Assembly: GCF_018861025.1 (NCBI RefSeq)
Contig: NZ_JAHKQH010000032.1
Location: 29,081 to 93,080 of the forward strand
Direction of reading: 5' to 3'
DNA from: Psychrosphaera sp. B3R10
Lineage (GTDB): Bacteria > Pseudomonadota > Gammaproteobacteria > Enterobacterales > Alteromonadaceae
DNA length: 64,000 nucleotides
The notes under the pieces: generated by a model
What the model saw: the letters and a program-made list of their open reading frames with translations, nothing else
What the model was told of the DNA's origin: nothing
Database searches by the model: none
Part shown: positions 16,810 to 46,416 of the stretch, piece after piece
How positions within the stretch are numbered: position 1 is the first letter of the stretch
Layout of the letters: each line of letters starts with the position of its first letter
Position numbers and translations under genes: made by a program

Positions 16810-19800
16810 ATGAAAACCAACTACAAGCTCAATTCGATATCTGCTGCTGTACTGGGAGTGCTGTTAAGCAATCCAGTCTATGCTGCTGAGCCTGAGGATA
16901 AAAACGCAGATGACGATATTGAAGTCATTGAAGTAAAAGGCTTTAGAGGCAGTTTACAAAAAGCCGTTAACGCGAAACGTTTTTCTGACAATGTTTCTGA
17001 TTCAATTCATGCAGAAGATGTTGGTAAATCTACCGACCAAAACATCGCTGATGCACTTTCTCGAGTGACGGGGATCTCGGTTATAGAGGAAGACGGCGAA
17101 GGTACTCGAATTTCAATTCGAGGCACATCGCCTTCAATGAACCAAATTTCGATGAATGGGGTTGCCATTACCAGTGGTAACTCAGGTAACGAAGGTGAGA
17201 TTGCTTCGCAATCTGTCGATTTAAGCTCATTTTCTTCTGACATTCTATCTTCAATCGATGTTGTTAAAACATCGTCTGCTGAGCAAGATGAAGGTTCTCT
17301 AGGTGCTAATGTTGTATTGCGCACAATTAAGCCACTGTCGTTAAATGAACCTCGCCGTATGGTAAACGTTGAAGGTCGTTATAATGAATTTTCTGGCAAA
17401 TATGATGGCCGAGTGACTACCAGTTTTGCTGATAAATTTGCTGATGATACATTTGGTGTGATTTTCACAGTGTCTGCTGACCAACAACAAACTCGTAACG
17501 ATAGTACGCGCACAAGTTGGGTTGAAGGCGGTGTAGGCATTTCTGATCTATATGCGAACTCAGGACGCATTGCCCGGGATACAAATGGCAAAGCAATTCG
17601 TGTACTTGGTTTTCAAACCGATTCAAGTGGTGCATATGTGCTTAACGAAGCCGGTGACCGTGTTCTTAATGATATATCGACGTTAGTCGATTACGATCCG
17701 GCAACTCAAACGGTAATTTCAGAGGGTGAATACAACGTCCTTGCTCGTAACAATACCGACATCTCTGTTGCTTCAAATATTCGTGAACGTATTTCAGCAA
17801 CTGCGGGTTTTGAATGGGAACCTACGGATTCAACAAATATCCAATTGGACTTAACCAAAACCAAGCAAACGGTTGAAACGGATTACCACAACTTTAGAAT
17901 GAATTTTGCTCCTCGTACTGGTATTTCAGGAAATGATCCCGTTTTAGATTGGAATACAGTTAATGTTGAAACACAAACGTTAGAACGCTCTTATAGTCGA
18001 CTTTCAAGTGGTTTTTTTAACCGTTCTCAAGGCACGCGTGAACTTGAAACTGATGTTTTTTCATTTACAGTTGAACAAGATTTAACAGACAATTTGCGCA
18101 TGCAATTTAATGTTGGTTTTTCTGAAACTGTTGAAGGAACAGATGACTTTATTAGTTTATCTACAGCAACCTGGGGCACACTAGGTAACAGTTCTGTTGA
18201 TGAAATGCCAGCAGACATTATTGAGCCGATTGGTTACAACTGTTTAGCAGCTGAATGTGACTTTGACATTAGCTCTTCATTAGCGGTAATTGACCCATAT
18301 GACGGCAGCCTGACTTCGGCTCCGAGTCGTTTTAGTTTATTAGATTTAAATGCCAACCATTTAGGTGGCCTAACGTTTAGAAACAATGAACAAACAGATA
18401 CGAATAAATCGTTAAAACTCGATTTCCAATGGGAGCTCGATTTCGATTACGTCACTGGCGTCGAATTTGGTATCAAAGCTTCAAAACGTGTTAAAGACGT
18501 TTATACCCAAAACCAAACTATCAACACGGGAACGGCAGTTGTTGATAACTCAAATCCAAATGTGTCATACGCTACAACAGGCATGGGCTCAATTGGTGTT
18601 GTTGATATGTTATCTGGTGAAGCTTTCCCATATGACAACTTTGGTGAAGGATTGTTCAAAGATACCAGTGACTTTTATTTTGATGGCTGGCCAATGTTAG
18701 ATGCGAAAAAAGCATTAGCAGAGTTTGCTGGTCGTGACCCAGATACCGTTGGTATCGCGGTTAACCCACAGGGCACACGCGAAATTTCAACGGAAACGCA
18801 ATCGGCTTATGTAAAACTAAACTTTGAAGGTTTTGACGGTCGTTTAACCGGTAACATTGGTGTTCGTTTTGTTAAAGATTCTAATGAATCAAGTGGTTAT
18901 GGTGGTATCAATTACCATCGTCCACCTCATTTGGTTGACCCTTATAACCTACTTATCGAACGTGGTTTAGGTGACATTGAAGGCTCTGAAGCTTGCCCAG
19001 ACGCACAAATGAACTTTAGACGCGACGGTGATGACAACGTAATGGATGTTTACGACACACGTTGGGCGCCACAAAATGAATCTGAGTTGGCAGGTTGCTT
19101 TGCATGGCAGCTAACTCACGGTTATAACTTCGACAATGACGATACAATCCCTTATGTAGACGGTGCTTGGGTTTTACCCGGCGGTATGGATACAAACCGT
19201 TTAGTGTTTATTGATTACACAGGCGCTTCACCGGTGATCAATGACTTAGTTCCATTACCAAATACGGTAGTGGATATTAATGGTAATGAAGTTGATGCGC
19301 CTCGCTCTAAACACCGACATTTTGGTGCCGCAGGTGAAATTTGGCCATTCCTTGACCGTTCAACATCATTTGTCGGACCAAACGGTAACAAAGATAATTC
19401 TACTATCCGTTCAGCTGCAAATAGCGGTTCTGCAACACATACATTGTTATTGCCTAGCTTAAATCTTAACTATGCAATCAATGACGAAATGATCGTTCGT
19501 TTTGCGACATCAAAAACAATGACACGTCCAGAGTTTGATTTCTTAAATCCTCGTTTACAAATGAACGAAAATCCATGGGGACCAACGGCATTAGGATCAG
19601 CGGGTAACGCTAATCTTAAACCGTTAAAATCAACAAACGTAGATATTTCATTTGAGTGGTATTTCAACGAGTCTGGTTTAGTGTCCGCTGCGGTATTCCA
19701 CAAAGATATTGTCGATATGGTCGAAAACGTAGTAACGCCATTCCATTATAAAGATGTCAGAACCGAATACGATTTACAAAGCGCAAACCTATTGTTGGAT

Positions 19801-33485: not shown

Positions 33486-34394
33486 TTAGATTGGTGAGTC
33501 GGCCGTCTTCAATTGCGATTTGAAGATTTTGATTAATTCAGACACATCCTGCATTTTGACAAAATTTGGTCTAACGATAAAAGCCAAACGACGATGAGGG
33601 CCAGGTTCGTTTAAGTGCAAAGCCCGTAACTCAGACTGCGGGGTGATTAACTGATCAAGCGCCATTTGTGGAACTAAGGTGGTGCCCAATTTTCCCGCGA
33701 CCATTTGAATTAAAGTATGTAGGCTTGCCGATTGAAAGTCACTGCGCTGTTTTACCGACTGTAACTGGCAGGCTTCAAGTGCATGGTCTTTTAAGCAATG
33801 GCCATCTTTGAGTAACATCAACTTATCCAATTCCATTTGACTGCTGGTGATTTCGTCAAGTTGTGTTGGGCATTCATCTTTGTGACTCACCCAATAAAAA
33901 TCTTCCTGCCAAAATTCTAAGGTTAGCAATCCCTCAGTAGGATAAGGCAAGGCCAATACGGCAACGTCTATTTCGCCTCTTCGCACCATATCAACTAAGA
34001 CATGACTTTGGTCTTCAACTATTTGCAAACGAAAATCAGGGTAAAGCTCTCGAACTTTAGGCAGTACCTTAGGTAGCAAATACGGACCAATGGTCGGGAT
34101 AACGCCCAATGACAATTCGGTGGATAATACAGACTTACTCAGTTGTGATAGTTGAACTAAGTCATCCATTTCACGTTTAATGTTCTGCGCTTTTTGTAAA
34201 AATAACTCGCCTTCTTTGGTCACAAGGACCTGTTTGTTATTGCGCTCGAATATTGCAACACCAAGTTGTTTTTCCAATTCACTTATTGCAGTACTTAATG
34301 CCGATTGTGAAACGCTGCACATTTCAGCTGCTTTTTTAAAATGCAGTGTTTGCCCTACAGCAAGCGCGTAGCGTATTTGTTTTAACGAAATCAT
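33486..34394 (-). CDS. oxyR: OxyR, peroxide-sensing LysR-type regulator
   Basis: LysR-family transcription factor that activates peroxide defence when oxidised. An N-terminal winged helix-turn-helix (LKQIRYALAVGQTLHFKKAA, then SVSQSALSTAISELE) is followed by the periplasmic-binding-like effector domain. The redox pair is present as C200 and C209 in LMLLKDGHCLKDHALEAC, matching the sensing cysteines of E. coli OxyR (199/208). 302 residues is standard length. It is divergent from ahpC, its expected target, with a near-perfect palindrome between them. Confidence 0.95.
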   Translation of the reverse strand: MISLKQIRYALAVGQTLHFKKAAEMCSVSQSALSTAISELEKQLGVAIFERNNKQVLVTKEGELFLQKAQNIKREMDDLVQLSQLSKSVLSTELSLGVIPTIGPYLLPKVLPKVRELYPDFRLQIVEDQSHVLVDMVRRGEIDVAVLALPYPTEGLLTLEFWQEDFYWVSHKDECPTQLDEITSSQMELDKLMLLKDGHCLKDHALEACQLQSVKQRSDFQSASLHTLIQMVAGKLGTTLVPQMALDQLITPQSELRALHLNEPGPHRRLAFIVRPNFVKMQDVSELIKIFKSQLKTADSPI

Positions 34395-34425
34395 CTTTTC
34401 TCTTTTGCACTTAATAAAATCTATG

Positions 34426-34442
34426 GTTCAATTTAATAGAAC
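34426..34442. promoter_or_regulatory. Near-perfect 17-bp palindrome between oxyR and ahpC
   Basis: GTTCAATTTAATAGAAC matches its reverse complement at 14 of 16 non-central positions. It lies about 40 bp upstream of a -10-like TATATT (34474-34479) for ahpC, where an activator would bind. It does not show the standard ATAG-N7-CTAT OxyR spacing, so the assignment to OxyR is by location only. Confidence 0.5.
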
Positions 34443-34552
34443 ATAAACTTCAATTCAATCAAATTTTCTAATTTATATTCCTACCCTAATATTACCCCAT
34501 CGAAAGCAAAGGTGCTTTCAACAAACCAAACTAGAAATGAAGGAAATTAACA

Positions 34553-35116
34553 ATGGCTAAAATCGGTAAATCAATCCCAGACTTCTCAGCAACCGCTTTT
34601 CACAATGGCGATTTTGTACCAGTCACATCTGAAGACGTGAAAGGGAAGTGGGCAATCTTTTTATTCTACCCAGCGGACTTCACATTTGTATGTCCTACAG
34701 AGTTAGAAGACATGGCAAATCAATATGACGAATTACAAAAATTAGGCGTTGAGGTGTATTCAGTATCAACAGACACACACTTCTCACATAAAGCATGGCA
34801 CGACTCTAGTGACGCGATTGGCAAAATTAAGTTTCCAATGCTAGGTGACCAAACTGGCCAAATTACTCGCGGCTTTGACGTCATGATTGAAGAAGATCAC
34901 ATGGCACACCGTGGCACATTCTTGGCTGACCCAGACGGCATCATTCAAGTTGCAGAAATTCACGCTGGTGGCATTGGCCGCTCGGCAAAAGACATGCTTC
35001 GCAAAGTGAAAGCCGCTCAGTATGTTCGTGAAAATGACGGTGAAGTATGCCCAGCAGCCTGGGAACAAGGTCAAGCAACATTAACGCCGAGTTTAGACCT
35101 AGTCGGTAAAATTTAA
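34553..35116 (+). CDS. ahpC: AhpC, 2-Cys peroxiredoxin (alkyl hydroperoxide reductase subunit C)
   Basis: Cytoplasmic peroxidase that reduces H2O2 and organic peroxides. The peroxidatic cysteine is C47 in DFTFVCPTE and the resolving cysteine is C166 in [11 protein letters not shown] near the C-terminus. 187 residues matches the AhpC type of E. coli. Its reductant AhpF is encoded next, after a strong hairpin. A good AAGGA ribosome site precedes the ATG. The divergent oxyR gene predicts induction by peroxide. Confidence 0.97.
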
Positions 35117-35130
35117 ATTCCGACGCACTT

Positions 35131-35172
35131 AGAAACTCATATGAGTCAGGTGTAAACACCATATGAGTTTCT
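35131..35172. terminator. Hairpin between ahpC and ahpF
   Basis: AGAAACTCATATG and CATATGAGTTTCT form a perfect 13-bp stem with a 16-nt loop. It probably attenuates read-through or protects the ahpC mRNA end, giving more AhpC than AhpF. Confidence 0.75.
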
Positions 35173-35242
35173 CAAACTAGTTATCTAATGGGCATTGCAA
35201 CATTCAATGCCCGTTAGTCTACCGCCATCAATGAGGTGAATT

Positions 35243-36793
35243 ATGTTAAGTAATGAAATTTTAAACGCAGTAAAAAGTTACGCAGAAATGTTAGATAAAA
35301 AGGTCACCTTGGTATTACAAACAGGGCAACACGACAGTCGTGCTGAATTGGTGGCATTTTTATCCGGGCTTTGTTCAGTTTCAGACAAGCTAGAATTTGT
35401 TGAACAAGACGCTGGATTACGCAGCCCAATTGCATTTGCGCTCCAAACCAACAATGAGTTTAACGGCGTCTATTTCTCGGGGATCCCAAGTGGCCACGAA
35501 TTTAATTCGCTTATATTAGCTATTTTGCAATCGGCGGGCACAGCCATAAAGCTTGACGAAAGTTTAAAACAAATTATCGCTAATATTAATCAACCGCTGC
35601 ATTTTGAAGTGTTTGTCTCTTTGAGCTGTCATAACTGTCCAGATGTTGTGCAGTCACTAAATCAATTTGCATTGCTAAATCCAAATATCAGCAGTGAAAT
35701 GATCGATGGTGGTTTGTTCCAATCCCTTGTGGAGTCTCGCAATATTCAGGGTGTACCGAGCGTTTATTTAAACGGCGACTTATTTGCCAATGGCAAGGTC
35801 GATACCTCAGTGTTAGTCGACAAGTTATTGGAAAAGTACCCAGATGCCGCCAAACAAAACGATGCTCCGCAATTGCCAGAACAAGACGTCACCGTAATCG
35901 GCGGCGGCCCAGCAGGGATTGCAGCAGCCATATACAGTGCTCGTAAAGGGCTTAAAGTAACACTAATTGCCGACCGTATAGGCGGACAGGTTAAAGATAC
36001 TGTTGGTATTGAAAACCTTATTTCAGTGCCTAAAACAACAGGGCCTGAACTGACTAATAATTTACAGGCCCATTTAAACGACTACGACGTTACGGTTAAA
36101 CAGCATGTTAGAGTTGAAAATATAGAACGTGGCAAGGTGAAACTCGTGCAGTTGAGTTCCGGTGAACAAATATCAACAAAATCGATAATCATTGCCACTG
36201 GTGCCAAATGGCGTGAACTGGGGGTTCCCGGTGAAAAAGAAAATATCGGAAATGGTGTCGCCTATTGCCCACATTGTGATGGACCGTTTTTCAAAGGTAA
36301 GGATGTTGCCGTCGTCGGTGGTGGCAACTCTGGTATTGAAGCGGCACTAGATTTAGCCGGCATGGTGAAACATGTGACCGTGTTTGAGTTTATGTCTGAG
36401 CTAAAAGCTGACAAAGTTTTGATTGATAAAGCTGAAGCCAAAAGCAATATAACCATAATCAAAAGTGCCGCAACAAAAGAAGTGGTTTCTGACAATGGTA
36501 AAGTGGTTGGTTTAGCCTACACAGACCGAAATACGGATGAAGAAAAATTACAGTCACTTGACGGCATTTTTGTTCAAATAGGCTTAGTACCAAACAGTGG
36601 GTTTTTGGCCGATATTGTCGACAGAACCAAACATGGTGAAATTATCATAGATGAACGTTGCCAAACATCTGAGCCCGGGATATTTGCCTGCGGAGATGTA
36701 ACAACCGTACCATATAAACAAATTGTTATTGCGATGGGAGAGGGAGCTAAAGCGTCATTATCTGCCTTTGATTACCTGATTAGAGAATCGTAA
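35243..36793 (+). CDS. ahpF: AhpF, NADH-dependent peroxiredoxin reductase
   Basis: Flavoprotein disulfide reductase that recycles AhpC with NADH. The N-terminal double-thioredoxin domain has the redox pair C129-x-x-C132 (LSCHNCPDV), at the same positions as in enteric AhpF. The thioredoxin-reductase-like part has the FAD motif [20 protein letters not shown], the active disulfide C342-x-x-C345 (YCPHCDGP), the NAD motif [16 protein letters not shown] and the FAD C-terminal motif [17 protein letters not shown]. 516 residues is typical. Same direction as ahpC and 126 nt downstream. Confidence 0.97.
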
Positions 36794-36815
36794 TAGGCAT
36801 AACAATAAAGTGATT

Positions 36816-36855
36816 AAAAAGGTCAGCAACCTCAATAGGGTTATCTGACCTTTTT
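36816..36855. terminator. Bidirectional terminator between ahpF and the CDF gene
   Basis: AAAAAGGTCAG and CTGACCTTTTT arms with an inner AACC/GGTT stem. A and T runs on both sides suit the two convergent genes. Confidence 0.92.
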
Positions 36856-36886
36856 GCTTATGGGCTATATTTACGCTTTTATGAGC

Positions 36887-37825
36887 TTAGTTTTGATAGC
36901 AATTTTCCGACTCAGTTTCTGGGTCTAAACGTTTTTTGGTGATTTCTATAGTTGAGTGGTGAATTCCGTAGCGCTCCACTAGAAACGCTTTGATCGGGCT
37001 TAAATCTTGTTGATCACCAGAGGTATCAAGTTCGACATAGGCTTCTAAAAATATATTGGTATCGTCGAGCTGCCATACATGGATATGCCAGATTTTAACA
37101 ACGGAATCTATGCCTTCCAGCTCAAGACAAAGTGTATCCACATCGATATTGGCAGGTACGCCTTGCATAAGTATGACCATACTTTGTTTTGCAAGTTGGT
37201 AACCTTGATAAATGACATAAAGTGAAATACCAATTGTTGCAATTAAATCAACAATATACCACTGATACAAAATAATAAGTGTGCCCGCTACCATGACGAC
37301 AATAGAGGCAAAGGCATCTGATAAATTGTGAATAAAAGTGGCTTTAAGGTTAAGGTTGTTTTTTACACCTGACTTATAGGTGAGCCAGGCAGTTGCAGCG
37401 TCAATTAAAAAAGCGACGGACGCGATCCCGACAATTATCCAGCCATCAATTGGCTGAGGATTAAAGTACTTACTAACGGCCTCAAAGATTAAATAGATCC
37501 CAACTAAAACAAGGGAAGTGCTATTGATCAAGGCCCCCAAGATTTCGGCTCTTCTAAAACCAAATGTCATCTTATTGCTCGCTGGCAATCTTGCAATTCG
37601 CCTTGCAAAAATGGCAATTAAAATTGCCCCGGCATCGCTTAAGTTGTGCAGGGCGTCGGCAATTAATGACAAGCTCCCCGATAAAACACCGCCTATAATT
37701 TGCACTATAGTGAGTAGAATATTGATAAAAACCGCTAAGCTTAATTTTCCGTCGTGATTATGGTGATGGTGGCCATGAGAATGACCATGCGAATGTAAAT
37801 GACTGTGACTGTGATCATGGGGCAT
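36887..37825 (-). CDS. Cation diffusion facilitator (CzcD/ZitB-type metal exporter)
   Basis: Inner-membrane proton-coupled exporter of divalent metals, most likely zinc. A histidine-rich N-terminus (MPHDHSHSHLHSHGHSHGHH) precedes about six membrane helices. Metal-site motifs appear in SLIADALHNLSDA (TM2) and THLIHNLSDAFAS-like ATFIHNLSDAFAS (TM5). A cytoplasmic ferredoxin-like C-terminal domain follows (HIHVWQLDDTNIFLEAYVEL). 312 residues is normal. AAGG precedes the ATG. It lies 164 nt downstream of an FKBP gene on the same strand and could share its transcript. Confidence 0.92.
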   Translation of the reverse strand: MPHDHSHSHLHSHGHSHGHHHHNHDGKLSLAVFINILLTIVQIIGGVLSGSLSLIADALHNLSDAGAILIAIFARRIARLPASNKMTFGFRRAEILGALINSTSLVLVGIYLIFEAVSKYFNPQPIDGWIIVGIASVAFLIDAATAWLTYKSGVKNNLNLKATFIHNLSDAFASIVVMVAGTLIILYQWYIVDLIATIGISLYVIYQGYQLAKQSMVILMQGVPANIDVDTLCLELEGIDSVVKIWHIHVWQLDDTNIFLEAYVELDTSGDQQDLSPIKAFLVERYGIHHSTIEITKKRLDPETESENCYQN

Positions 37826-38421: not shown

Positions 38422-38570
38422 TAATAAAGCCTTTTTACTGCTATCCCTTTGCCATCATATCTTACGGTCAATTCGATAATAAAGCTGATTTTTATTATTA
38501 CGTTTTAATGTGATGTGGAATTAAATTTTTAAAACAAAAAATGTGCTACGGAAACACCATTAATCTAATT

Positions 38571-38647
38571 GATAATTATTCGCATTTGTATTGACATGTT
38601 GAAATCAATCAGTAAACTAATCGCAATTGAGAATGATTATCATTTAA
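38571..38647 (+). promoter_or_regulatory. Iron-regulated (Fur) promoter region of the heme locus
   Basis: TTGACA (38591-38596) and TAAACT (38613-38618) at 16-nt spacing form a plausible sigma-70 promoter. A Fur-box-like site GAGAATGATTATCATTTAA (38629-38647) matches the classic 19-bp consensus at 14 positions and sits just past the start of transcription. A weaker match (12 of 19) begins at 38571. This predicts repression by iron. Confidence 0.75.
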
Positions 38648-38697
38648 TGTTTGTGTGACGATTTATTTTTCGCGTTCAACAAAGATTAGAAGACAAA

Positions 38698-38709
38698 ATG
38701 AACGAATAA
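38698..38709 (+). other. Three-codon mini-ORF just before the heme receptor
   Basis: ATG AAC GAA TAA, preceded by AGAAG, ends one base before the receptor ATG at 38711. The receptor itself has no clear ribosome site. Ribosomes could therefore start here and re-initiate at the receptor. Speculative. Confidence 0.35.
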
Positions 38710-38710
38710 C

Positions 38711-40834
38711 ATGTTGATAATAAAAAAGAACCTAGTCAAAAATCTAATTGTCATTAATACCAGCCTAAGTCTGATTTTGTCCCTAGGGGGATTAAGTGCT
38801 GCCGAACGTCCATCTGGTTCAGTTGGAATAAATACGGATGAAGCAGCAAATAACACTGCACTAGAAAATAAGAATGTGACAAGTGAGGACGATTTGCTAG
38901 CTGCTGTCAGCGTTGAAAATAACGCAACACCTTATGTTGAAACTCTGGTAGTTACCGGCACCAGAACCGCAAAGCTGTTAAGTGACTCGCCTGTCTCTGT
39001 TGATGTCATAGAACGAGATACTTTGAAGTTAGTGACACAGGGCACATTGGCTCAAGCGCTAGAGTTTATTCCATCTGTTGTTTTGGAACGCAGCGTAAAA
39101 GACGGTTATACGGTCAAAATGCGCGGGTATGGCAGTAAACATATTGCCGTTTTACTCAATGGCCAACCGTTAATTTCACCTGCTAACGGGGCGGTTGATT
39201 TAGATCAGATCAGCGCACACAACATTGAACGAATAGAAGTCATTAAAGGCGCCGCGTCGGTGCTTTATGGCAGCTCTGCCATGGGTGGGGTCATTAATAT
39301 TATTACCACTGAGGATGCTGAGCCGGTAACTCAAATTCGAACAGAAATTGGCATATACGATGCCAATGATGAGGTTAGTGTTGATAACCTTTTACATACA
39401 ACCACATTATCTAATATTGGCCGTATGGATGATTGGCAACACCAAATATCGCTACAACATGTCTCTGATCCTGGCTTTGATTTAACCCCAGCTGATGTAC
39501 AACAAGATTCAGGTGAACTCACCAAAAACTTTGCTAAAGCTGCGATATCTAAATCTTTTTCAGTTGTTGATTTTAGTTTGTCTTATGACTTTCTAAACGA
39601 ATCCAAAAACAAAATAACGGCTAAAGTTCCCGGCCAGTCGAATCTAATTTATTACGTTTCTGATGTTGAACAACATCAATTGGGGGCTGGGTTAAGTGCA
39701 TTTGATAATCACTGGCATCTAAAATCTAGGTTTATAAGTCACGATGAAACGAGTGGCCGGTCGAACAGTATTCGAGACGCTCAAATTACCTTAGGTCAGC
39801 TTGAAGGATTGTACTCTCTGCAGCATGGGAAAGTACGACCTCAGTTTGACAGCGAATATGGCGGTGAAGTGGTATTTGGATTTGCCACAAATTTTGACAA
39901 ACTTGATCAGGTTAAACCGGCTGATAACTCAATTGAAGTGGCAAATGAATCCAGAAGCAGTGTAGAGCTATATAGCCAATACAACTTCATCAAGTCGGAT
40001 CATCAATATCTGTTGGGGATCAGGAGCCAATATGATTCTGATTTTGGTATGCATACCGCATTACGTTTGAGCGCGATGTTTGACGTAGAAGTTGCAGGAC
40101 TGCCGTTAAAAGTAAGAGGCGGTTATGGGCAAGGTTATCGAGTCCCAGACTTAAAAGAACGTTACTACGTGTTTGACCACAGCAACTTAGGTTACAAGGT
40201 TCTCGGCAACGAAGATTTAAAGCCCGAGCAATCAGATTCTTACAATTTGAGCGTTGATTATACAGGCGCGGTATTTAATCGTTCCGCAGACTTACAGTTA
40301 TCTTTTGATTTACATCATTCAGAAACAAAAGACCTGATAGCGACGCGAGAAGATGCACAAATGTCTCAAGCGCAAAATCTCAGTATTTCACAATACAAAA
40401 ACATAGAGAAATCAACAATCGAAGGGTTTGATATTAGTGCAGAGCTGCGTTTTCTCAATTGGAATAGCCAACTAAATTACAGCTATGTAGATGCCGTTGA
40501 CCAAAGTGGCAAACGTCTTGAAGCCCGTCCGCGTCACCAAGTTAAAGCTAATATCGGGTACGACTTGCACTCGCTCGATGTTCAAACGCTACTTTATGCC
40601 GTTTATCAAGCAGATGAAGTCACGCCAGACGATTACGTCGATGCAGCGGTTGATGGGTTTACCACTCTCAACTTCTCGCTCAATCACACCATAACTTCCA
40701 ATCTTCAATGGCATCTTTCGTTGCTTAATTTAACCGATGAGCACCGAGATAACCAACTGATAGATCTTGGGTATTTTGACCCAAGGCCTGTATCGAGCCG
40801 AACGATTAAAGTTGGTGTTAATTATCAGTTTTAA
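38711..40834 (+). CDS. TonB-dependent heme/hemoprotein receptor (HmuR-like)
   Basis: Outer-membrane receptor of 707 residues, predicted to import heme. A signal peptide (MLIIKKNLVKNLIVINTSLS, then SLGGLSAAE) is followed by a TonB-box-like VETLVVTGTRTAKL. The plug domain has IAVLLNGQPLISPANG and IERIEVIKGAASVLYGSSAMGGVINI. The barrel ends in an aromatic residue (KVGVNYQF). YVFDHSNLGYKVLGNEDLKPE corresponds to the region of heme receptors that often carries a ligand histidine. The sequence alone could also fit a BtuB- or siderophore-type receptor. The heme call leans on the adjacent HmuY-like and HmuS-like genes and on the Fur box upstream. Confidence 0.8.
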   Translation: MLIIKKNLVKNLIVINTSLSLILSLGGLSAAERPSGSVGINTDEAANNTALENKNVTSEDDLLAAVSVENNATPYVETLVVTGTRTAKLLSDSPVSVDVIERDTLKLVTQGTLAQALEFIPSVVLERSVKDGYTVKMRGYGSKHIAVLLNGQPLISPANGAVDLDQISAHNIERIEVIKGAASVLYGSSAMGGVINIITTEDAEPVTQIRTEIGIYDANDEVSVDNLLHTTTLSNIGRMDDWQHQISLQHVSDPGFDLTPADVQQDSGELTKNFAKAAISKSFSVVDFSLSYDFLNESKNKITAKVPGQSNLIYYVSDVEQHQLGAGLSAFDNHWHLKSRFISHDETSGRSNSIRDAQITLGQLEGLYSLQHGKVRPQFDSEYGGEVVFGFATNFDKLDQVKPADNSIEVANESRSSVELYSQYNFIKSDHQYLLGIRSQYDSDFGMHTALRLSAMFDVEVAGLPLKVRGGYGQGYRVPDLKERYYVFDHSNLGYKVLGNEDLKPEQSDSYNLSVDYTGAVFNRSADLQLSFDLHHSETKDLIATREDAQMSQAQNLSISQYKNIEKSTIEGFDISAELRFLNWNSQLNYSYVDAVDQSGKRLEARPRHQVKANIGYDLHSLDVQTLLYAVYQADEVTPDDYVDAAVDGFTTLNFSLNHTITSNLQWHLSLLNLTDEHRDNQLIDLGYFDPRPVSSRTIKVGVNYQF

Positions 40835-40920
40835 CGGCTAAACCACTTTAGATAACCCATTAAAAAATTATAAAAAACACATAAATTTGAACAACAATTT
40901 TGTATAGGAACAAGATAGAT

Positions 40921-42066
40921 ATGAAACACTCTAATTCAAATACCCCGGCGATAAATAACACAAATTTAAAAAAGATAGCTTCGCTTTCTCTAATAAGCAT
41001 GGCGTTGTTAATGGCTGGGTGCAGTTCATCTGACGATGACGAACCAAACGTTGTAGAGGACGTTGTGGAAGATGAAGTTACGTCGACGCCATACGGCCCG
41101 TTTTCAACCGGGACAAGCAGCGCGCCTGTATTTGCTTACTTTGATTTAGATACTGGCACCGTATTAGAGCTTACGGAAGACCAAGCTAGCACAAATGAAG
41201 ATTGGGATATTGCATTCAAGCGTACCAATATCTACCTAAATAACAATGGTACAACACCTGTTGGAATGTATTTTACTGGCAACAACAGTGAATATTACGA
41301 CGCTGACGGTGCAGCAATTGTTGATACATTTGTTAATGCAAGTGCTGAAGCCGAACTGGCAGATTATGAAGCTGTATCGTTAGCTGATGTGCCAGCGGAT
41401 GAAGAATTTGTAAGTGACGTAACCGAACGTATTTTGGATGGATTTTATAACTACGATACAACCACCCATGCAGTAACGGCTAAAGACGACAGTTTTTATA
41501 TTGTCCAATCAGATGGCGTGTTTAGTAAGTTTAGAGTGACTAATTTGACGCAGTCTGGCTTTGGAATGTCCGACGTCACTCTAAGTTTTGGCGTACAGGC
41601 GTCTGGAGAAACTGAGTTTTCGACAGAACAAGATTTAACCTTAGATTTGGCTATGTTATGTGCGTCTGAATCGGCGGTATATATTAACTTTGCAACGGCA
41701 ATGGAAGTAACATCAACGGAAGACTACGATATCTCTATTCCATGTGCTGATGGTATTGGCTCGTATCAACTTGATTTAGCGGAAACATCAACGGCAATTC
41801 AAGATTTTACAAATTCCTTTACGGGTGTCGCTGTTGAAGCGGCTAGTCATTATGGCTTCCAGCCAAATGAATACACAGTAAACGCATTTAAGACTAAAAA
41901 CTGGTACGCCTATAACCTACAAGGTGGCCATCAATTATGGTCACAATATGGTGTTTATATCATCAAAACAGCAACTCAAAATTACAAAATGCAAATCACA
42001 AGTTATTACGATGCCGAAGGAAACTCTGGCAATTATAGCTTTGTCGCTGACCCACTTACAGAATAA
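40921..42066 (+). CDS. HmuY-family heme-binding lipoprotein
   Basis: Surface or periplasmic lipoprotein resembling HmuY, which captures heme from host or environmental hemoproteins. The ATG at 40921 gives 381 residues; an upstream TTG at 40900 is unlikely. The signal ends in LLMAGC, with an acidic linker (SSSDDDEPNVVEDVVEDE). The HmuY-like core is visible in FAYFDLDTGTVLEL, NEDWDIAFKRTNIYLNN and WYAYNLQGGHQLWSQYGVYI. Candidate heme ligands exist but cannot be fixed without an alignment. It lies 86 nt after the receptor gene on the same strand, the order found in Bacteroidota hmu operons. HmuY proteins are best known there, so acquisition by transfer is possible. Confidence 0.78.
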   Translation: MKHSNSNTPAINNTNLKKIASLSLISMALLMAGCSSSDDDEPNVVEDVVEDEVTSTPYGPFSTGTSSAPVFAYFDLDTGTVLELTEDQASTNEDWDIAFKRTNIYLNNNGTTPVGMYFTGNNSEYYDADGAAIVDTFVNASAEAELADYEAVSLADVPADEEFVSDVTERILDGFYNYDTTTHAVTAKDDSFYIVQSDGVFSKFRVTNLTQSGFGMSDVTLSFGVQASGETEFSTEQDLTLDLAMLCASESAVYINFATAMEVTSTEDYDISIPCADGIGSYQLDLAETSTAIQDFTNSFTGVAVEAASHYGFQPNEYTVNAFKTKNWYAYNLQGGHQLWSQYGVYIIKTATQNYKMQITSYYDAEGNSGNYSFVADPLTE

Positions 42067-42225
42067 GTAAGCTAGGTTACAACTGTCCTCCGGGACTAAC
42101 TAAGTTGATTCAAACGGGACAAGTTAGGGCGTTATGTTATCTTCCGCGAGATAAAAAAACGCCTTGATTTGATGAATATAAACTTAGTTAGCCCCATCCT
42201 TTATTGCCCGTTTTACAGGTTACAC

Positions 42226-45200
42226 ATGAAATATTCACTTTCATTTTTAAAAAAAATTGCTCTATTTTGCTTGACGTTGTCGTCAGTACAATCGTTTGCT
42301 GAACCACAAAATCGAGTCCAGCAAAACAGCGAGTCTGAGTTGCAGCAGGCACCACAGAAAGCACCACAGAAAGCGTCTAGGTTATTGATTATAAGCTCTT
42401 CACACAGTAATCCAGCCAAAGTAAAATTGTTAAAAAAGCAGGCTACTTCCAATAATGCCATGATGCTGAATTGGCAAGTGAGCCAAAAATCGCTGCGTTC
42501 TATTAAGTCTCCTGTAGAGTTTTTGGCCCTAATTAATCAATATCACGTTGTCCTGTTAGACAGTGTTTCAGTGGCGGAAGCCAATAAAAGTTTTTCACCC
42601 TATCTTCCTTTAATTAATCAGTCCAAGGCCAGAGTGGTTGGTTTAAAATGGCATCAGACTTTCCAACATAAAATAGGTGTGTCTGAATTACAAAGGCAAA
42701 CTCTCGACCAATATTGGGATAACGGTGGCAGTAAAAATCTTGGCAATATGTTGCGTTATTTGTCTGTTAACGTGCTCGAAGATCCCGCTACACAATCCTT
42801 ATCGGTCGCATCACCGGTGATATTTCCCGATAAAGGCATTTACCATCCAAAGTTACCAAACCTTATTGTTAGCGACTTAAAACAATATTTTGATTGGCAA
42901 GCACCAAAATCGAACCAAGCTAAAATTGCGTTATTGATGAATCGATCAGCAATAGAAGTTGAACAAACTGAGTTAATAGACACAACGATTGCGCAATTAG
43001 AGCAACGTGGTGTGCACGTTGTGCCGTTTTTCTTTGCGTTAAGTCGTGGTGAAAAACACTACGATGAATTGTTATATATCGATGGCAATGCCGCCAATAA
43101 ATTAACGGCAGATGTCGACCTAATTTTAAACTTTAGAAACATTCATTGGGCTAATCAACGTAAGGTTGAATTTGAACGTTTTGGCGTCCCTGTTATTCAG
43201 GCCATGACTTATTATGGCGGTGACCAAAAAGCCTGGGAACAAGACCCACAAGGTGTTGATGCCGGTATGATGGCATTTACTTTAGTTTTACCAGAAACCG
43301 CGGGGGTTACCGATCCTATGGTGGTGGCTGCAATGGACCGCCGCAGTGGCAATATTGACATTATTGATTATCAACTAGAGCATTTAGTAAATAAGGCCGT
43401 CAATTTAACTTCCTTAAAATACAAACCCGCACATGACAAAAAAATCACGGTTTTTGTTTGGGGCGACCAAGATGTCGGTGCGTCATTTTTAAATATTCCA
43501 ACCAGTCTAAGTGAAATCACTAAAACACTAAATGCGCAGGGGTATGACATTCCCGCCACCGATGAGACATTTTTTACACAAAGAGTTAAAAAAATTCTAG
43601 ACCCATTTTATCGGCCAGAGCAACTTCAAGGTAAACAGCTAAAAGCCTTTTTAGATGACGATCTTGCAGAGCTCATGCCGATAGAAAATTACTTAGCGTG
43701 GTTTAACAAATTGCCAACGGATCTTAAAAATAAAATTAATGACCATTGGGGTAAACCACAGGATAACTTTATGGCGATAAAACGCGATTCAGTTGACTAT
43801 TTTATATTGCCTCGAATGCGTGTAGGTAACATGTTAGTGATGCGTCAACCGCCGCGTTCAGATAAAAAGAATGATGAAAGTGGTATTTTTCATCAGGGAA
43901 TCGTACCTATCAATCACTTCTATTTGGCAGCCTACTTTTATGCCCGTGAGTTTTGGCAAGGCGACGCTATTGTTCATTTAGGCACACATGGTTCGCAGGA
44001 ATATTTAGGTGGAAAAGAGCGTGGCTTATCGATTTATGATCAAGGCAATCTAGCGGTTTGGGATACGCCCGTGGTGTATCCATTTATTGTCGACGATGTA
44101 GGTGAGGCGATGCAAACAAAACGACGTGGTCGTGCAACGGTCGTTTCTCATATGACACCGCCATTTGCCGCAGCTGGCTTGCAAGGTGATATTGTGGTTT
44201 TACATGAATTGATGCACCAATACAGCCAGTTAGATAATGGCGGTGTCAAACAAAAGACGGCGAAGCAGGTGGTAGAACAGTGCTTTACTTTAAATATCTG
44301 TAAGGATATCGCCTGGGAACAAGCCGATATTGAGAAAGACTTTGATGGATTTTTTGACGATCTGCACAGCCATATGGAAGCCCTCGCAACCGCCAATCAA
44401 CCACTGGGCTTACATACTTTTGGGCAGTTACCCGAGACTCGTTTGGTCGTTAGCACCTTAATCCAAATGTTGGGCAGTAAATTTACGGCCTTAGCACAGG
44501 AATATGAGCACGATGTCGTCGGATTACACGAGGGGCTGGGGCACAATTCCGATGCTGCCAAAACCGAGTCAAACGAGCATCTTATTGAAAACGTCGAAAT
44601 TGAAAATCTACCTGGGTTTTACACTGTGTTAAACCACGTCGTGAACGGGGTAAGAGCAGTGGACGCTGCGAATGGCGTAAACGGTAAAACCAACAACAAA
44701 AGTCAGTTACCAGAGGAATTAATAGAACACGTTAAACGTGGACAAAGTCTTTACCAAGGATTAACACAGATAAGAGAACTGCAAAGTTTATCGGACTTTC
44801 TCAACGGACGATATATCCCAGTAAAAACCGGTGGCGACCCCATCCGTCACCCAGAGTCTCTGCCAACGGGTTTTAATCTGTACGGATTTGACCCAGCAAA
44901 AGTACCTACTAAAGCCGCATTTGAACAAGGTAAAGAACTGATCAATCAAATGATAAGTGACCACCAAGCCAAACATGGAAAATTTCCAGACAAGATGGCG
45001 TTTTCACTGTGGTCTATCGAAACCATGCGTCATTATGGGGTGTTAGAATCCCAAGCCTTATATGCTATGGGCGTTCGACCAATTTGGTCTGAAACCGGTC
45101 GCGTTCTTGGTTCTGAAGTGATCCCGTATTCAGAGCTTAAACGACCTCGTATTGATGTTGTTTTATCCGCCACGGGCTTATATCGAGATGCGTTCCCAAA

Positions 45201-46416
45201 TGTTATGCAGCGCCTGGCGAAAGCAGTGCAGCAAGTGGCGGAACTTAAAGAAGATAACAACCCGATATGGCAAAACAGTCAACGTGTTAAAGCCGAATTA
45301 TTAGCACAGGGCGTCGAACAAGAAGATGCTGAATATTTGTCGACGGTTCGCGTATTTTCAAACCAGTCAGGTGATTATGGTTCGGGTGTTGATGGTCTGG
45401 CCTGGGCAAGTGACAAGTGGGAAAATGACAGCGTCATTGCCGACAATTATATGAACAAAATGGGATTTTATTTTGGCGCAGACAAGTCACGTTGGGGCAA
45501 AAAAATAACGTCAAAAACCGGCGAGCCGATTAACCTATATGGCAAGCAGTTGTCAGGCACCGACATCGCCTTGTTCTCCCGTTCGTCAAATGTATTTGGC
45601 ATGTTAAGTTCAGACGACCCATTTGAGTATTTTGGTGGCATAAGCTTAGCGGTTCGAAACCTAGACGGGGCAAGTCCCGACATGGTGGTATCGAATCTTC
45701 GTGATGCAAATAATGTGAAAGCAGAAGATGCCTCTCGCTTTTTAGCACGCGAGCTTAGAACGCGTATTTTCCATCCACGTTGGATTAAGGAAATGCAGAA
45801 AGAAGGTTACTCCGGTGCTGTGTCGTTAAGCAGTAGAATGGATAACTTTTTTGGTTGGCAAGTCGTTGACCCTAACTTGGTTAGAAGTGATCAGTGGGAC
45901 GAATATCTAGACATCTATGTAGATGACAAACTCAATTTAGACTTAGATGAATGGTTTGAAAAAACCAATCCAGAAGCTCTCGCCCGTATGATGCAACGTA
46001 TGTTAGAAGCGCAGCGTAAAGACTATTGGCAGGCAAATGACGAGCGCTTAGAAACGCTAGTCAAACGGTACAGTGAGTTTGTCGAAAAATATAATCTATT
46101 TGTCGATAATGAAAAGCTTAAACAACATGTCACCGAGTTAGCTGCTGGCTATGGGTTAGCCGCACCGCAGTTTTCTGCTGATGCATCGCAGGTAAAAACA
46201 GAACCAACTGATGTACAGCCACCAAAGGCAGCAGAAAGCAACACAAGTGAAGTTGAGCAGGTCACAGGCCAAAAGCTTGAACTGCAACCGCAAGCGACGG
46301 AATCTGAACCAGATTATTCATATCTATTCAGTATCTTAGGCGTTGTTCTTATTATTTTAGGTGGCATGTATTACGAAGTGATCAAGGGCAAGATGTTAAT
46401 GGCCCGCAGGCCATAA
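42226..46416 (+). CDS. CobN-family chelatase-like protein with signal peptide and C-terminal membrane anchor (HmuS-like)
   Basis: Large CobN/BchH-type protein. The ATG at 42226 (AGG upstream) gives 1396 residues and a signal peptide (MKYSLSFLKKIALFCLTLSS, cleaved near SFAEP); an upstream ATG at 42169 would bury it. The family motif HLGTHGSQEYLGGKERG lies near residues 583-600, and WSIETMRHYGVLESQALYAMGVRPIW is also typical. The C-terminus has a proline/glutamate linker, one membrane helix (YLFSILGVVLIILGGMYY) and a short basic tail. Cobalamin CobN is cytoplasmic and works with CobS/CobT, which are absent here. An exported anchored form behind HmuR and HmuY matches HmuS, reported in Bacteroides to remove iron from heme. 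The reaction is inferred. Confidence 0.75.
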   Translation: MKYSLSFLKKIALFCLTLSSVQSFAEPQNRVQQNSESELQQAPQKAPQKASRLLIISSSHSNPAKVKLLKKQATSNNAMMLNWQVSQKSLRSIKSPVEFLALINQYHVVLLDSVSVAEANKSFSPYLPLINQSKARVVGLKWHQTFQHKIGVSELQRQTLDQYWDNGGSKNLGNMLRYLSVNVLEDPATQSLSVASPVIFPDKGIYHPKLPNLIVSDLKQYFDWQAPKSNQAKIALLMNRSAIEVEQTELIDTTIAQLEQRGVHVVPFFFALSRGEKHYDELLYIDGNAANKLTADVDLILNFRNIHWANQRKVEFERFGVPVIQAMTYYGGDQKAWEQDPQGVDAGMMAFTLVLPETAGVTDPMVVAAMDRRSGNIDIIDYQLEHLVNKAVNLTSLKYKPAHDKKITVFVWGDQDVGASFLNIPTSLSEITKTLNAQGYDIPATDETFFTQRVKKILDPFYRPEQLQGKQLKAFLDDDLAELMPIENYLAWFNKLPTDLKNKINDHWGKPQDNFMAIKRDSVDYFILPRMRVGNMLVMRQPPRSDKKNDESGIFHQGIVPINHFYLAAYFYAREFWQGDAIVHLGTHGSQEYLGGKERGLSIYDQGNLAVWDTPVVYPFIVDDVGEAMQTKRRGRATVVSHMTPPFAAAGLQGDIVVLHELMHQYSQLDNGGVKQKTAKQVVEQCFTLNICKDIAWEQADIEKDFDGFFDDLHSHMEALATANQPLGLHTFGQLPETRLVVSTLIQMLGSKFTALAQEYEHDVVGLHEGLGHNSDAAKTESNEHLIENVEIENLPGFYTVLNHVVNGVRAVDAANGVNGKTNNKSQLPEELIEHVKRGQSLYQGLTQIRELQSLSDFLNGRYIPVKTGGDPIRHPESLPTGFNLYGFDPAKVPTKAAFEQGKELINQMISDHQAKHGKFPDKMAFSLWSIETMRHYGVLESQALYAMGVRPIWSETGRVLGSEVIPYSELKRPRIDVVLSATGLYRDAFPNVMQRLAKAVQQVAELKEDNNPIWQNSQRVKAELLAQGVEQEDAEYLSTVRVFSNQSGDYGSGVDGLAWASDKWENDSVIADNYMNKMGFYFGADKSRWGKKITSKTGEPINLYGKQLSGTDIALFSRSSNVFGMLSSDDPFEYFGGISLAVRNLDGASPDMVVSNLRDANNVKAEDASRFLARELRTRIFHPRWIKEMQKEGYSGAVSLSSRMDNFFGWQVVDPNLVRSDQWDEYLDIYVDDKLNLDLDEWFEKTNPEALARMMQRMLEAQRKDYWQANDERLETLVKRYSEFVEKYNLFVDNEKLKQHVTELAAGYGLAAPQFSADASQVKTEPTDVQPPKAAESNTSEVEQVTGQKLELQPQATESEPDYSYLFSILGVVLIILGGMYYEVIKGKMLMARRP

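Follow-up and report, generated by a model that had tools for sequence, protein, structure and literature searches.

Does a gammaproteobacterium carry a heme-iron module of the kind known from Bacteroidota, and if so, what drives the removal of iron? The question is raised by a stretch of 64,000 nucleotides from Psychrosphaera sp. B3R10 (contig NZ_JAHKQH010000032.1). We call this stretch the window and studied its section 38571-46416. Three genes lie on the (+) strand between 38711 and 46416, in the order R-Y-S: a TonB-dependent receptor, an HmuY-family lipoprotein and a CobN-superfamily protein of 1396 residues. A sequence-only reading had seen here a receptor, an HmuY-like lipoprotein and a CobN-family protein behind Fur-like sites, a gene content that PF14064, PF02514 and the receptor domains confirm. 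It had also called the locus a periplasmic heme-iron module encoding an HmuS-like protein, possibly gained by transfer. What survives is a heme-type module, probably controlled by Fur and equipped with an anchored protein; the HmuS identity and a direct transfer from Bacteroidota find no support. We propose that the operon would serve Fur-regulated heme import, after which a BtuS-type CobN-like protein would release the iron in the periplasm, probably driven by an ExbB-like/DUF2149 pair. We judge the chance that this proposal is correct to be about even.

The CobN-like protein is encoded by the only PF02514 gene of the genome. Its best NCBIfam model is CobN (NF004644, 1196 bits), below the cut-off of 1248, and it reaches the cut-off of no other model. 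Among solved structures it scores highest against HmuS (427 bits), followed by ChlH (354) and CobN (326), and for its last 396 residues HmuS reaches 200 bits against 76 for the next structure. In a quick LG+G4 tree of 52 rows selected from 114, the window protein falls into a clade of 30 proteobacterial rows with support 100. The two deepest forks of this tree have support 89 and are drawn open, many rows have an unusual composition, and long branches lead to L155 (the only BchH row) and L160_1. HmuS forms another clade with support 100, made up of Bacteroides finegoldii, Prevotella, Aureibacter and one protein of Pseudoalteromonas sp. NBT06-2. The window type is clade A; clade B, with about 40% identity, goes with a divergent receptor and lacks HmuY. 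The features of the locus are the following.

38565..38589, + strand: weaker Fur-like site, 12/19 consensus matches in two registers (38565 and 38571)
38591..38618, + strand: promoter-like TTGACA-16-TAAACT between the Fur-like sites, 10/12 in a consensus scan, by itself no evidence of function
38623..38647, + strand: better Fur-like site in two overlapping registers, 14/19 matches at 38623 and at 38629
38711..40834, + strand: TonB-dependent receptor with an HmuR-like role (PF07715 and PF00593)
40921..42066, + strand: HmuY-family lipoprotein of 381 residues (PF14064, 43.5 bits, cut-off 27; lipobox)
42226..46416, + strand: exported CobN-superfamily protein, 1396 residues from ATG (PF02514, 973 bits; tree; approximately unbiased (AU) tests)
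From TTG at 42169, + strand: longer mechanical open reading frame of the CobN-like gene
42226..42300, + strand: probable signal peptide of the CobN-like protein, by eye
43135..43146, + strand: neck motif R304-x-x-H307, which replaces HGR of HmuS, with His in the HmuS Arg256 column (16/16 clade-A and 9/9 clade-B rows)
43975..43992, + strand: HLGTHG motif with His588, by alignment the equivalent of the catalytic HmuS His538
45613..45639, + strand: DDPFEYFGG, with Asp1131 at the HmuS His1209 position
46318..46368, + strand: C-terminal membrane helix, residues 1365-1381

How much of HmuS is left in this protein? The defining features of HmuS and its role as a heme de-chelatase are taken from PMC12583661 (papers are cited here by such numbers). 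The catalytic His538, in HFG(T/A)HG, is kept as His588 in 25/25 clade A and B rows. The neck triplet His254-Gly-Arg (HGR) is lost in all 25, His standing two places on, and His1209, the second axial His in LSLDHxxEFMGG, has become Asp in all 25; HGR and His1209 are both present in 5/5 HmuS-clade rows. Asp in this place is common to true CobN rows. The sole BchH row has His at position 1209, and Azospirillum L154, within the 30-row clade, has His in both HmuS columns. Across the 114 rows, DDPF combined with RxxH occurs in 83 and the corresponding HmuS combination in 4; RxxH is a loose pattern that also matches 5 rows outside the DDPF group. Other positions are less telling. Gln299 is Phe in the window protein but Met in 2/5 HmuS-clade rows too, and Glu1212 is kept in 12/16 clade-A rows, with Gln in the other 4 and in 9/9 clade-B rows. 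The Met-rich insertion of domain IV holds 1 Met in 104 residues in the window protein; since L149, a gammaproteobacterial row of the HmuS clade, itself has only 4 in 103, little weight can be put on this feature. In the CobN-like proteins of L063, L065, L070 and L073 the domain IV region is His-rich (11-16 His), with His/Asp/Glu runs in L065, and in Catenovulum maritimum (L090) two tandem CobN-like genes of 1399 and 1408 residues share one window-type operon.

The C-terminal helix noticed in the sequence-only reading is borne out. Its hydropathy peak is 2.22, and a helix at our threshold of 1.6 or more is found in 16/16 clade-A, 9/9 clade-B and 4/4 HmuS-clade rows but in 0/10 CobN/BchH controls. 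The signal peptide fares less well: MKYSLSFLKKIALFCLTLSSVQSFA followed by EP reads as one by eye, but its peak of 1.57 stays under the same cut. N-terminal peaks of at least 1.6 occur in 14/16 clade-A rows but also in 3/10 controls and discriminate poorly.

Could the protein be a true HmuS gained from Bacteroidota after all? Gene content and export are like those of HmuS, HmuS is the best solved match, and an AU test does not reject HmuS and the 30-row clade as one group (p 0.11). For a sister relation this is the test that matters, and thus HmuS may be the sister of the 30-row clade. For membership the outcome is different. The AU tests, run after the tree had been seen, reject clade A with HmuS (p 3.5e-26), partly because clade B is nearer to A, and also reject A, B and HmuS together (p 2.5e-5). 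HGR and LDHxxEFMGG are replaced in 25/25 rows, and Pseudoalteromonas NBT06-2 has a separate HmuS-clade protein. We therefore rejected HmuS membership on the tree, the AU tests and the changed residues. Direct transfer from Bacteroidota is not supported either: the protein sits in a proteobacterial clade, and base composition gives no sign of transfer, with 0.41-0.43 G+C in the operon genes against 0.41 in the whole window, and 0.35-0.40 at third positions against 0.32-0.39 in four neighbours. A transferred true HmuS is highly improbable. A true cobaltochelatase CobN of B12 synthesis is the remotest explanation of all. It can point to the common Pfam family and to the CobN model as the top NCBIfam score, below cut-off as that score is. 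The C-terminal anchor is missing from 10/10 controls, however, no cobalamin genes were seen at the window locus, and the AU tests reject true CobN as a partner of clade A (p 2e-63) and of the 30-row clade (p 4.6e-4). The clustering with CobN that the sequence-only reading had named as counter-evidence was not seen, and on the AU tests and the helix true CobN was rejected too. The CobN-like protein is an exported, anchored protein of the BtuS type, distinct from CobN and ChlH.

What travels with such proteins? We compared the best 80 of 336 relatives in named genomes and stretches of further genomes, in which 95 loci received a CobN call, for 93 distinct proteins. Gene calls were mechanical: DUF2149 was probably missed in L063, L072 and L103, and L123, whose protein is one of the 114, was given no CobN call. 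An ExbB-like family is present in 85/95 loci and the main DUF2149 family in 74/95; Pfam confirms them as MotA/TolQ/ExbB and DUF2149. The usual order is ExbB-like, DUF2149, CobN-like with a receptor in front, to which HmuY is added in the subclade of the window. In three annotated Bacteroidota loci the same two families lie downstream of the CobN gene, and in the annotated hmuYRSTUV of P. gingivalis they occupy the positions of U and V (PMC10434189). In only four loci is the CobN-like gene immediately preceded by HmuY: the window, Thalassotalea marina (L047), Psychrosphaera F3M07 (L048) and Pseudoalteromonas NBT06-2 (L049). They form one clade with support 100, and all lack the pair in the operon. 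Loci of the window type are uncommon: among 398 genomes of the phylum, the A1 profile finds a match at 1e-30 in 134 and a score of at least 1000 bits in 10.

NBT06-2 carries, beside its window-type operon, a second locus (L149:184-8240; G297, contig 430) with a receptor, the HmuS-clade protein, a 207-residue protein, an ExbB-like protein and DUF2149, an order like HmuRSTUV. No HmuY was found in the stretch examined around it. Its HmuS-clade protein has HGR and LSLDHVYEFMGG, lacks Gln299, Ser1014, Ser1067 and Gln1198 and is not Met-rich. The window type and the HmuS clade coexist and can be told apart.

The absence of hmuTUV, claimed from the sequence alone, is right for the locus, where no HmuT was found, but misleading for the genome. 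Contig 6 holds an orphan ExbB-like/DUF2149 pair (about 17068-18002), and the 17 kb examined around it contain neither a receptor gene nor a CobN-like gene. Such a pair is present elsewhere in 4/4 genomes whose HmuY-then-CobN-like operon lacks it (no completeness is given for the L047-L049 genomes). In a tree of the joined pair the four orphans fall with pairs of clade B, and at least three placements are needed to account for them. L146 and L148 sit among clade-B pairs on starred branches; for the orphan of the window genome (L145) and for L147, the link to clade B is no more than an unstarred fork (86/45) and the nearest distance. The stretch of L146 includes a receptor gene, and in L148 a receptor gene lies further off. 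No clade-B CobN-like gene was found in any of the four genomes, two of which have second PF02514 genes, of the long clade and of the HmuS clade. The simplest story is that a pairless clade-A operon spread among these genera, while every host retained the pair from a clade-B operon that it otherwise lost.

The pair also follows the CobN-like genes in number. DUF2149 exceeds its cut-off in 14/295 genomes of the order. We split the 34 genomes with CobN matches by hand, by score, frame length and visible neighbours, into 15 with a non-B12 CobN-like gene and 19 with the B12 type only (one of the latter, G197, has merely a 61-residue match). DUF2149 is present in 14/15 of the former and 0/19 of the latter (Fisher 1e-8, a test that ignores relatedness). 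The sole non-B12 genome without it, G111, is 88% complete, and two further genomes have DUF2149 matches below cut-off and no CobN match. Copy numbers of CobN-like and DUF2149 genes are equal in 6/6 genomes (1:1, 2:2, 2:2, 1:1, 2:2, 1:1). The DUF2149 helix keeps an NxxD motif in 40/41 rows, which we take to resemble the proton-path Asp of ExbD. Ordinary ExbD genes are present in 6/6 genomes, with three in the window genome, so the receptors have an energiser available. HmuS, the window clade and the long clade beside B12 genes, all exported homologs of class I chelatases, may be worked from the inner membrane by a dedicated proton-driven ExbB-like/DUF2149 stator that would replace the ATP (adenosine triphosphate) motor CobS/CobT or ChlI/ChlD. 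The window would be a natural swap, a chelatase operon lacking a stator of its own in genomes that have all retained an orphan one, probably from a displaced sister operon. This idea is tentative, and we hold it to be a little on the doubtful side.

Is heme the substrate? The conserved His residues of HmuY and the receptor, the Fur-like sites and the missing heme oxygenases make heme likely. The HmuY relatives (25 loci, 24 distinct proteins) keep the lipobox Cys34 and His183 in 26/26 rows and His337 in 24/26; the two exceptions are an Asn and a rearranged protein with the motif elsewhere, and relative L068 has no His besides the two conserved ones. P. gingivalis HmuY uses two His and other HmuY proteins Met-Met or His-Met, and heme binding by two His extends to the oxidised state (PMC12106395). 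The two conserved His are only suggestive of heme binding by the window's HmuY protein. Its nearest solved structure is 8b6a, a HmuY homolog. The predicted model is weak (mean predicted local distance difference test 62.9, from an alignment of 8 rows), and with it Foldseek gives two matches at E < 0.001, both chains of 8b6a, at a root-mean-square deviation of about 17; these support the HmuY family and say nothing on a heme site. In Marinifaba aquimaris (L095) the 420-residue gene before ExbB is HmuY-like with a rearranged domain order, the C-terminal part with the GGHLLWSEYGVYIVK motif coming first. In the receptor, His490 in the YRVP...GNEDL box is invariant in 25/25 receptors adjoining HmuY, whereas HmuR of B. 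finegoldii and Prevotella has Met there.

Both Fur-like sites that the sequence-only reading had pointed out are present, and both are statistically weak for the window alone. Scored against a 19-base consensus, the better site (14/19) is equalled in 52/1000 shuffles of the upstream region and both sites together (14/19 and 12/19) in 25/1000. They flank the promoter-like sequence, in a region with 23 promoter matches against 20 in shuffles, which is no excess. Among relatives, the best Fur-like site is reached by at most 5/100 shuffles in 18/36 clade-A and 17/39 clade-B operon starts; these loci are related, and two or more duplicated, so the counts are not independent. For Zur, likewise scored with a consensus, 12/30 shuffles were as good as the window upstream region. 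No Rfam model, the cobalamin riboswitch included, matched at gathering score in the window or the 6 relatives searched. The module is probably under Fur control. The proposed lack of a heme oxygenase agrees with the genomes: HugZ, HemO-type and HemS families have no match in any of the 6 genomes searched for these families, the window genome included, radical-SAM HutW/ChuW and IsdG types not being part of the search. FeoB is present in 5/6.

These observations suggest the following sequence of events. Low iron would relieve repression of the module, as in iron-repressed acquisition. The HmuY-family lipoprotein would capture heme, probably with its two His, and the receptor would bring it into the periplasm using the ordinary TonB-ExbB-ExbD system. 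There, we infer, the membrane-anchored CobN-like protein would remove the iron and leave the porphyrin, and Fe(II) would then enter by FeoB. In this step the CobN-like protein would probably work with the proton-channel pair encoded on the other contig.

Several results weigh against this scheme. NCBIfam receptor models fail to separate heme (173 bits) from B12 (164 bits), both scores lying below cut-off, and among solved structures the receptor best matches that of colicin I. Taken alone, the Fur-like sites of the window are weak; of the HmuS residues, neither the second axial His nor the propionate-side Gln1198 is kept; and one of the six genomes (G295) has no FeoB_C match. Loss of both CobN-like proteins did not stop B. 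fragilis from releasing protoporphyrin IX from heme (PMC6460266). CobN-like genes accompanied by the pair are also found in hydrogenase/urease and cobamide settings, so the module is not specific to heme. On plasmid pRUNSL01 of Runella slithyformis (L130), receptor, urease-accessory-type, ExbB-like, DUF2149 and CobN-like genes lie within a hydrogenase (hyp) island, which suggests a nickel-linked version of the module. Plasmid pGLOV01 of Trichlorobacter lovleyi (L132) has receptor, DUF2162, ExbB-like, DUF2149 and CobN-like genes, then a separate ExbB-ExbD-TonB set, and adjoins a cobamide lower-ligand gene. In the long clade (1461-1564 residues; L150:6694-11978, L039, L040, L041, L042, L043) the CobN-like gene is followed by the pair, and in L150 it adjoins genes that look by eye like B12 salvage; this clade is possibly an exported corrinoid-handling counterpart.

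Such neighbours, together with the near-equal receptor scores, the CobN-like Asp at the His1209 position and the zinc-responsive cobN-like operon PA1922-PA1925 of P. aeruginosa (PMC4542158), would fit a module that takes up another tetrapyrrole or metal complex (a corrinoid, another metalloporphyrin or a metallophore), whose metal the CobN-like protein releases or handles. We consider this unlikely, though well worth keeping in mind: the operon has an HmuY gene with two conserved His, its sites are Fur-like and not Zur-like, no riboswitch was found in the window or the six relatives, and the genome has no second PF02514 gene. The role of the pair is contested more closely. HmuU and HmuV have been called ExbB/ExbD-like and proposed to energise HmuR, with HmuV taken as diagnostic of heme transport (PMC10100974). 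The Runella and Trichlorobacter loci weigh against such heme specificity. The energising role itself, with no part in the chelatase step, is in line with receptor and pair sharing one locus in most relatives, and we regard it as a serious contender that is nevertheless rather doubtful. Ordinary ExbD is at hand in every genome searched, DUF2149 follows the CobN-like copy number, and Trichlorobacter has the pair plus its separate set. Moreover, window-type and clade-B receptors are only distantly alike, yet the orphan pairs are clade-B-like. Our preferred reading remains heme-iron release by the CobN-like protein, with the pair as its probable motor.

Upstream of the module, the stretch 33486-37825 looks by eye to encode a regulator of the LysR type, AhpC- and AhpF-like proteins and a cation-diffusion transporter rich in His.

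Most of what is known about oxygenase-free release of heme iron comes from Bacteroidota. Comparison with a parallel marine gammaproteobacterial clade whose metal-site residues differ would reveal what is essential to the HmuS mechanism, and a pair that is unlinked but kept makes the role of HmuU/HmuV testable, as receptor energiser (as proposed) or as power for the chelatase. HmuS-type matches in Proteobacteria have been counted before (PMC10100974), and the proposal of a third class of CobN-like proteins, the BtuS type, dates from 2003 (as told in PMC6460266). At the level of titles and abstracts, with subscription papers mostly outside, the literature covers Bacteroidota and the zinc operon of P. 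aeruginosa, with no gammaproteobacterial HmuY operon of the window type and no stator role for the pair. New, then, are the parallel gammaproteobacterial clade with an HmuY operon and a motor question that is open to test.

How does the locus compare with known systems? To cobaltochelatase CobN it is tied by PF02514, the catalytic His and the Asp at the His1209 position, and it differs by its C-terminal helix and clade. P. aeruginosa PA1922-PA1925 (PMC4542158, PMC8456098), likened here by description and not by sequence, is similar in having a receptor, a cobN-like gene and an ExbD-like gene within one operon; unlike the window it is under zinc/Zur control and lacks HmuY. BtuS1 and BtuS2 of B. 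fragilis (PMC6460266), the latter being the HmuS of that species (PMC13227078), are likewise exported, membrane-anchored, apart from CobN and ChlH and linked to heme-iron use. With HmuYRSTUV of Bacteroidota (PMC12583661) the window shares HmuY and a TonB receptor, an exported anchored CobN-superfamily protein with the catalytic His, and an ExbB-like/DUF2149 pair in the genome. Gene order varies even there, with Y-R-S in two of the three Bacteroidota records compared and R-Y-S in one (Aureibacter). The window departs from this system in its separate clade, the missing HGR, Asp for His1209, an insert that is not Met-rich, a locus in which no HmuT was found and a partner pair that is unlinked.

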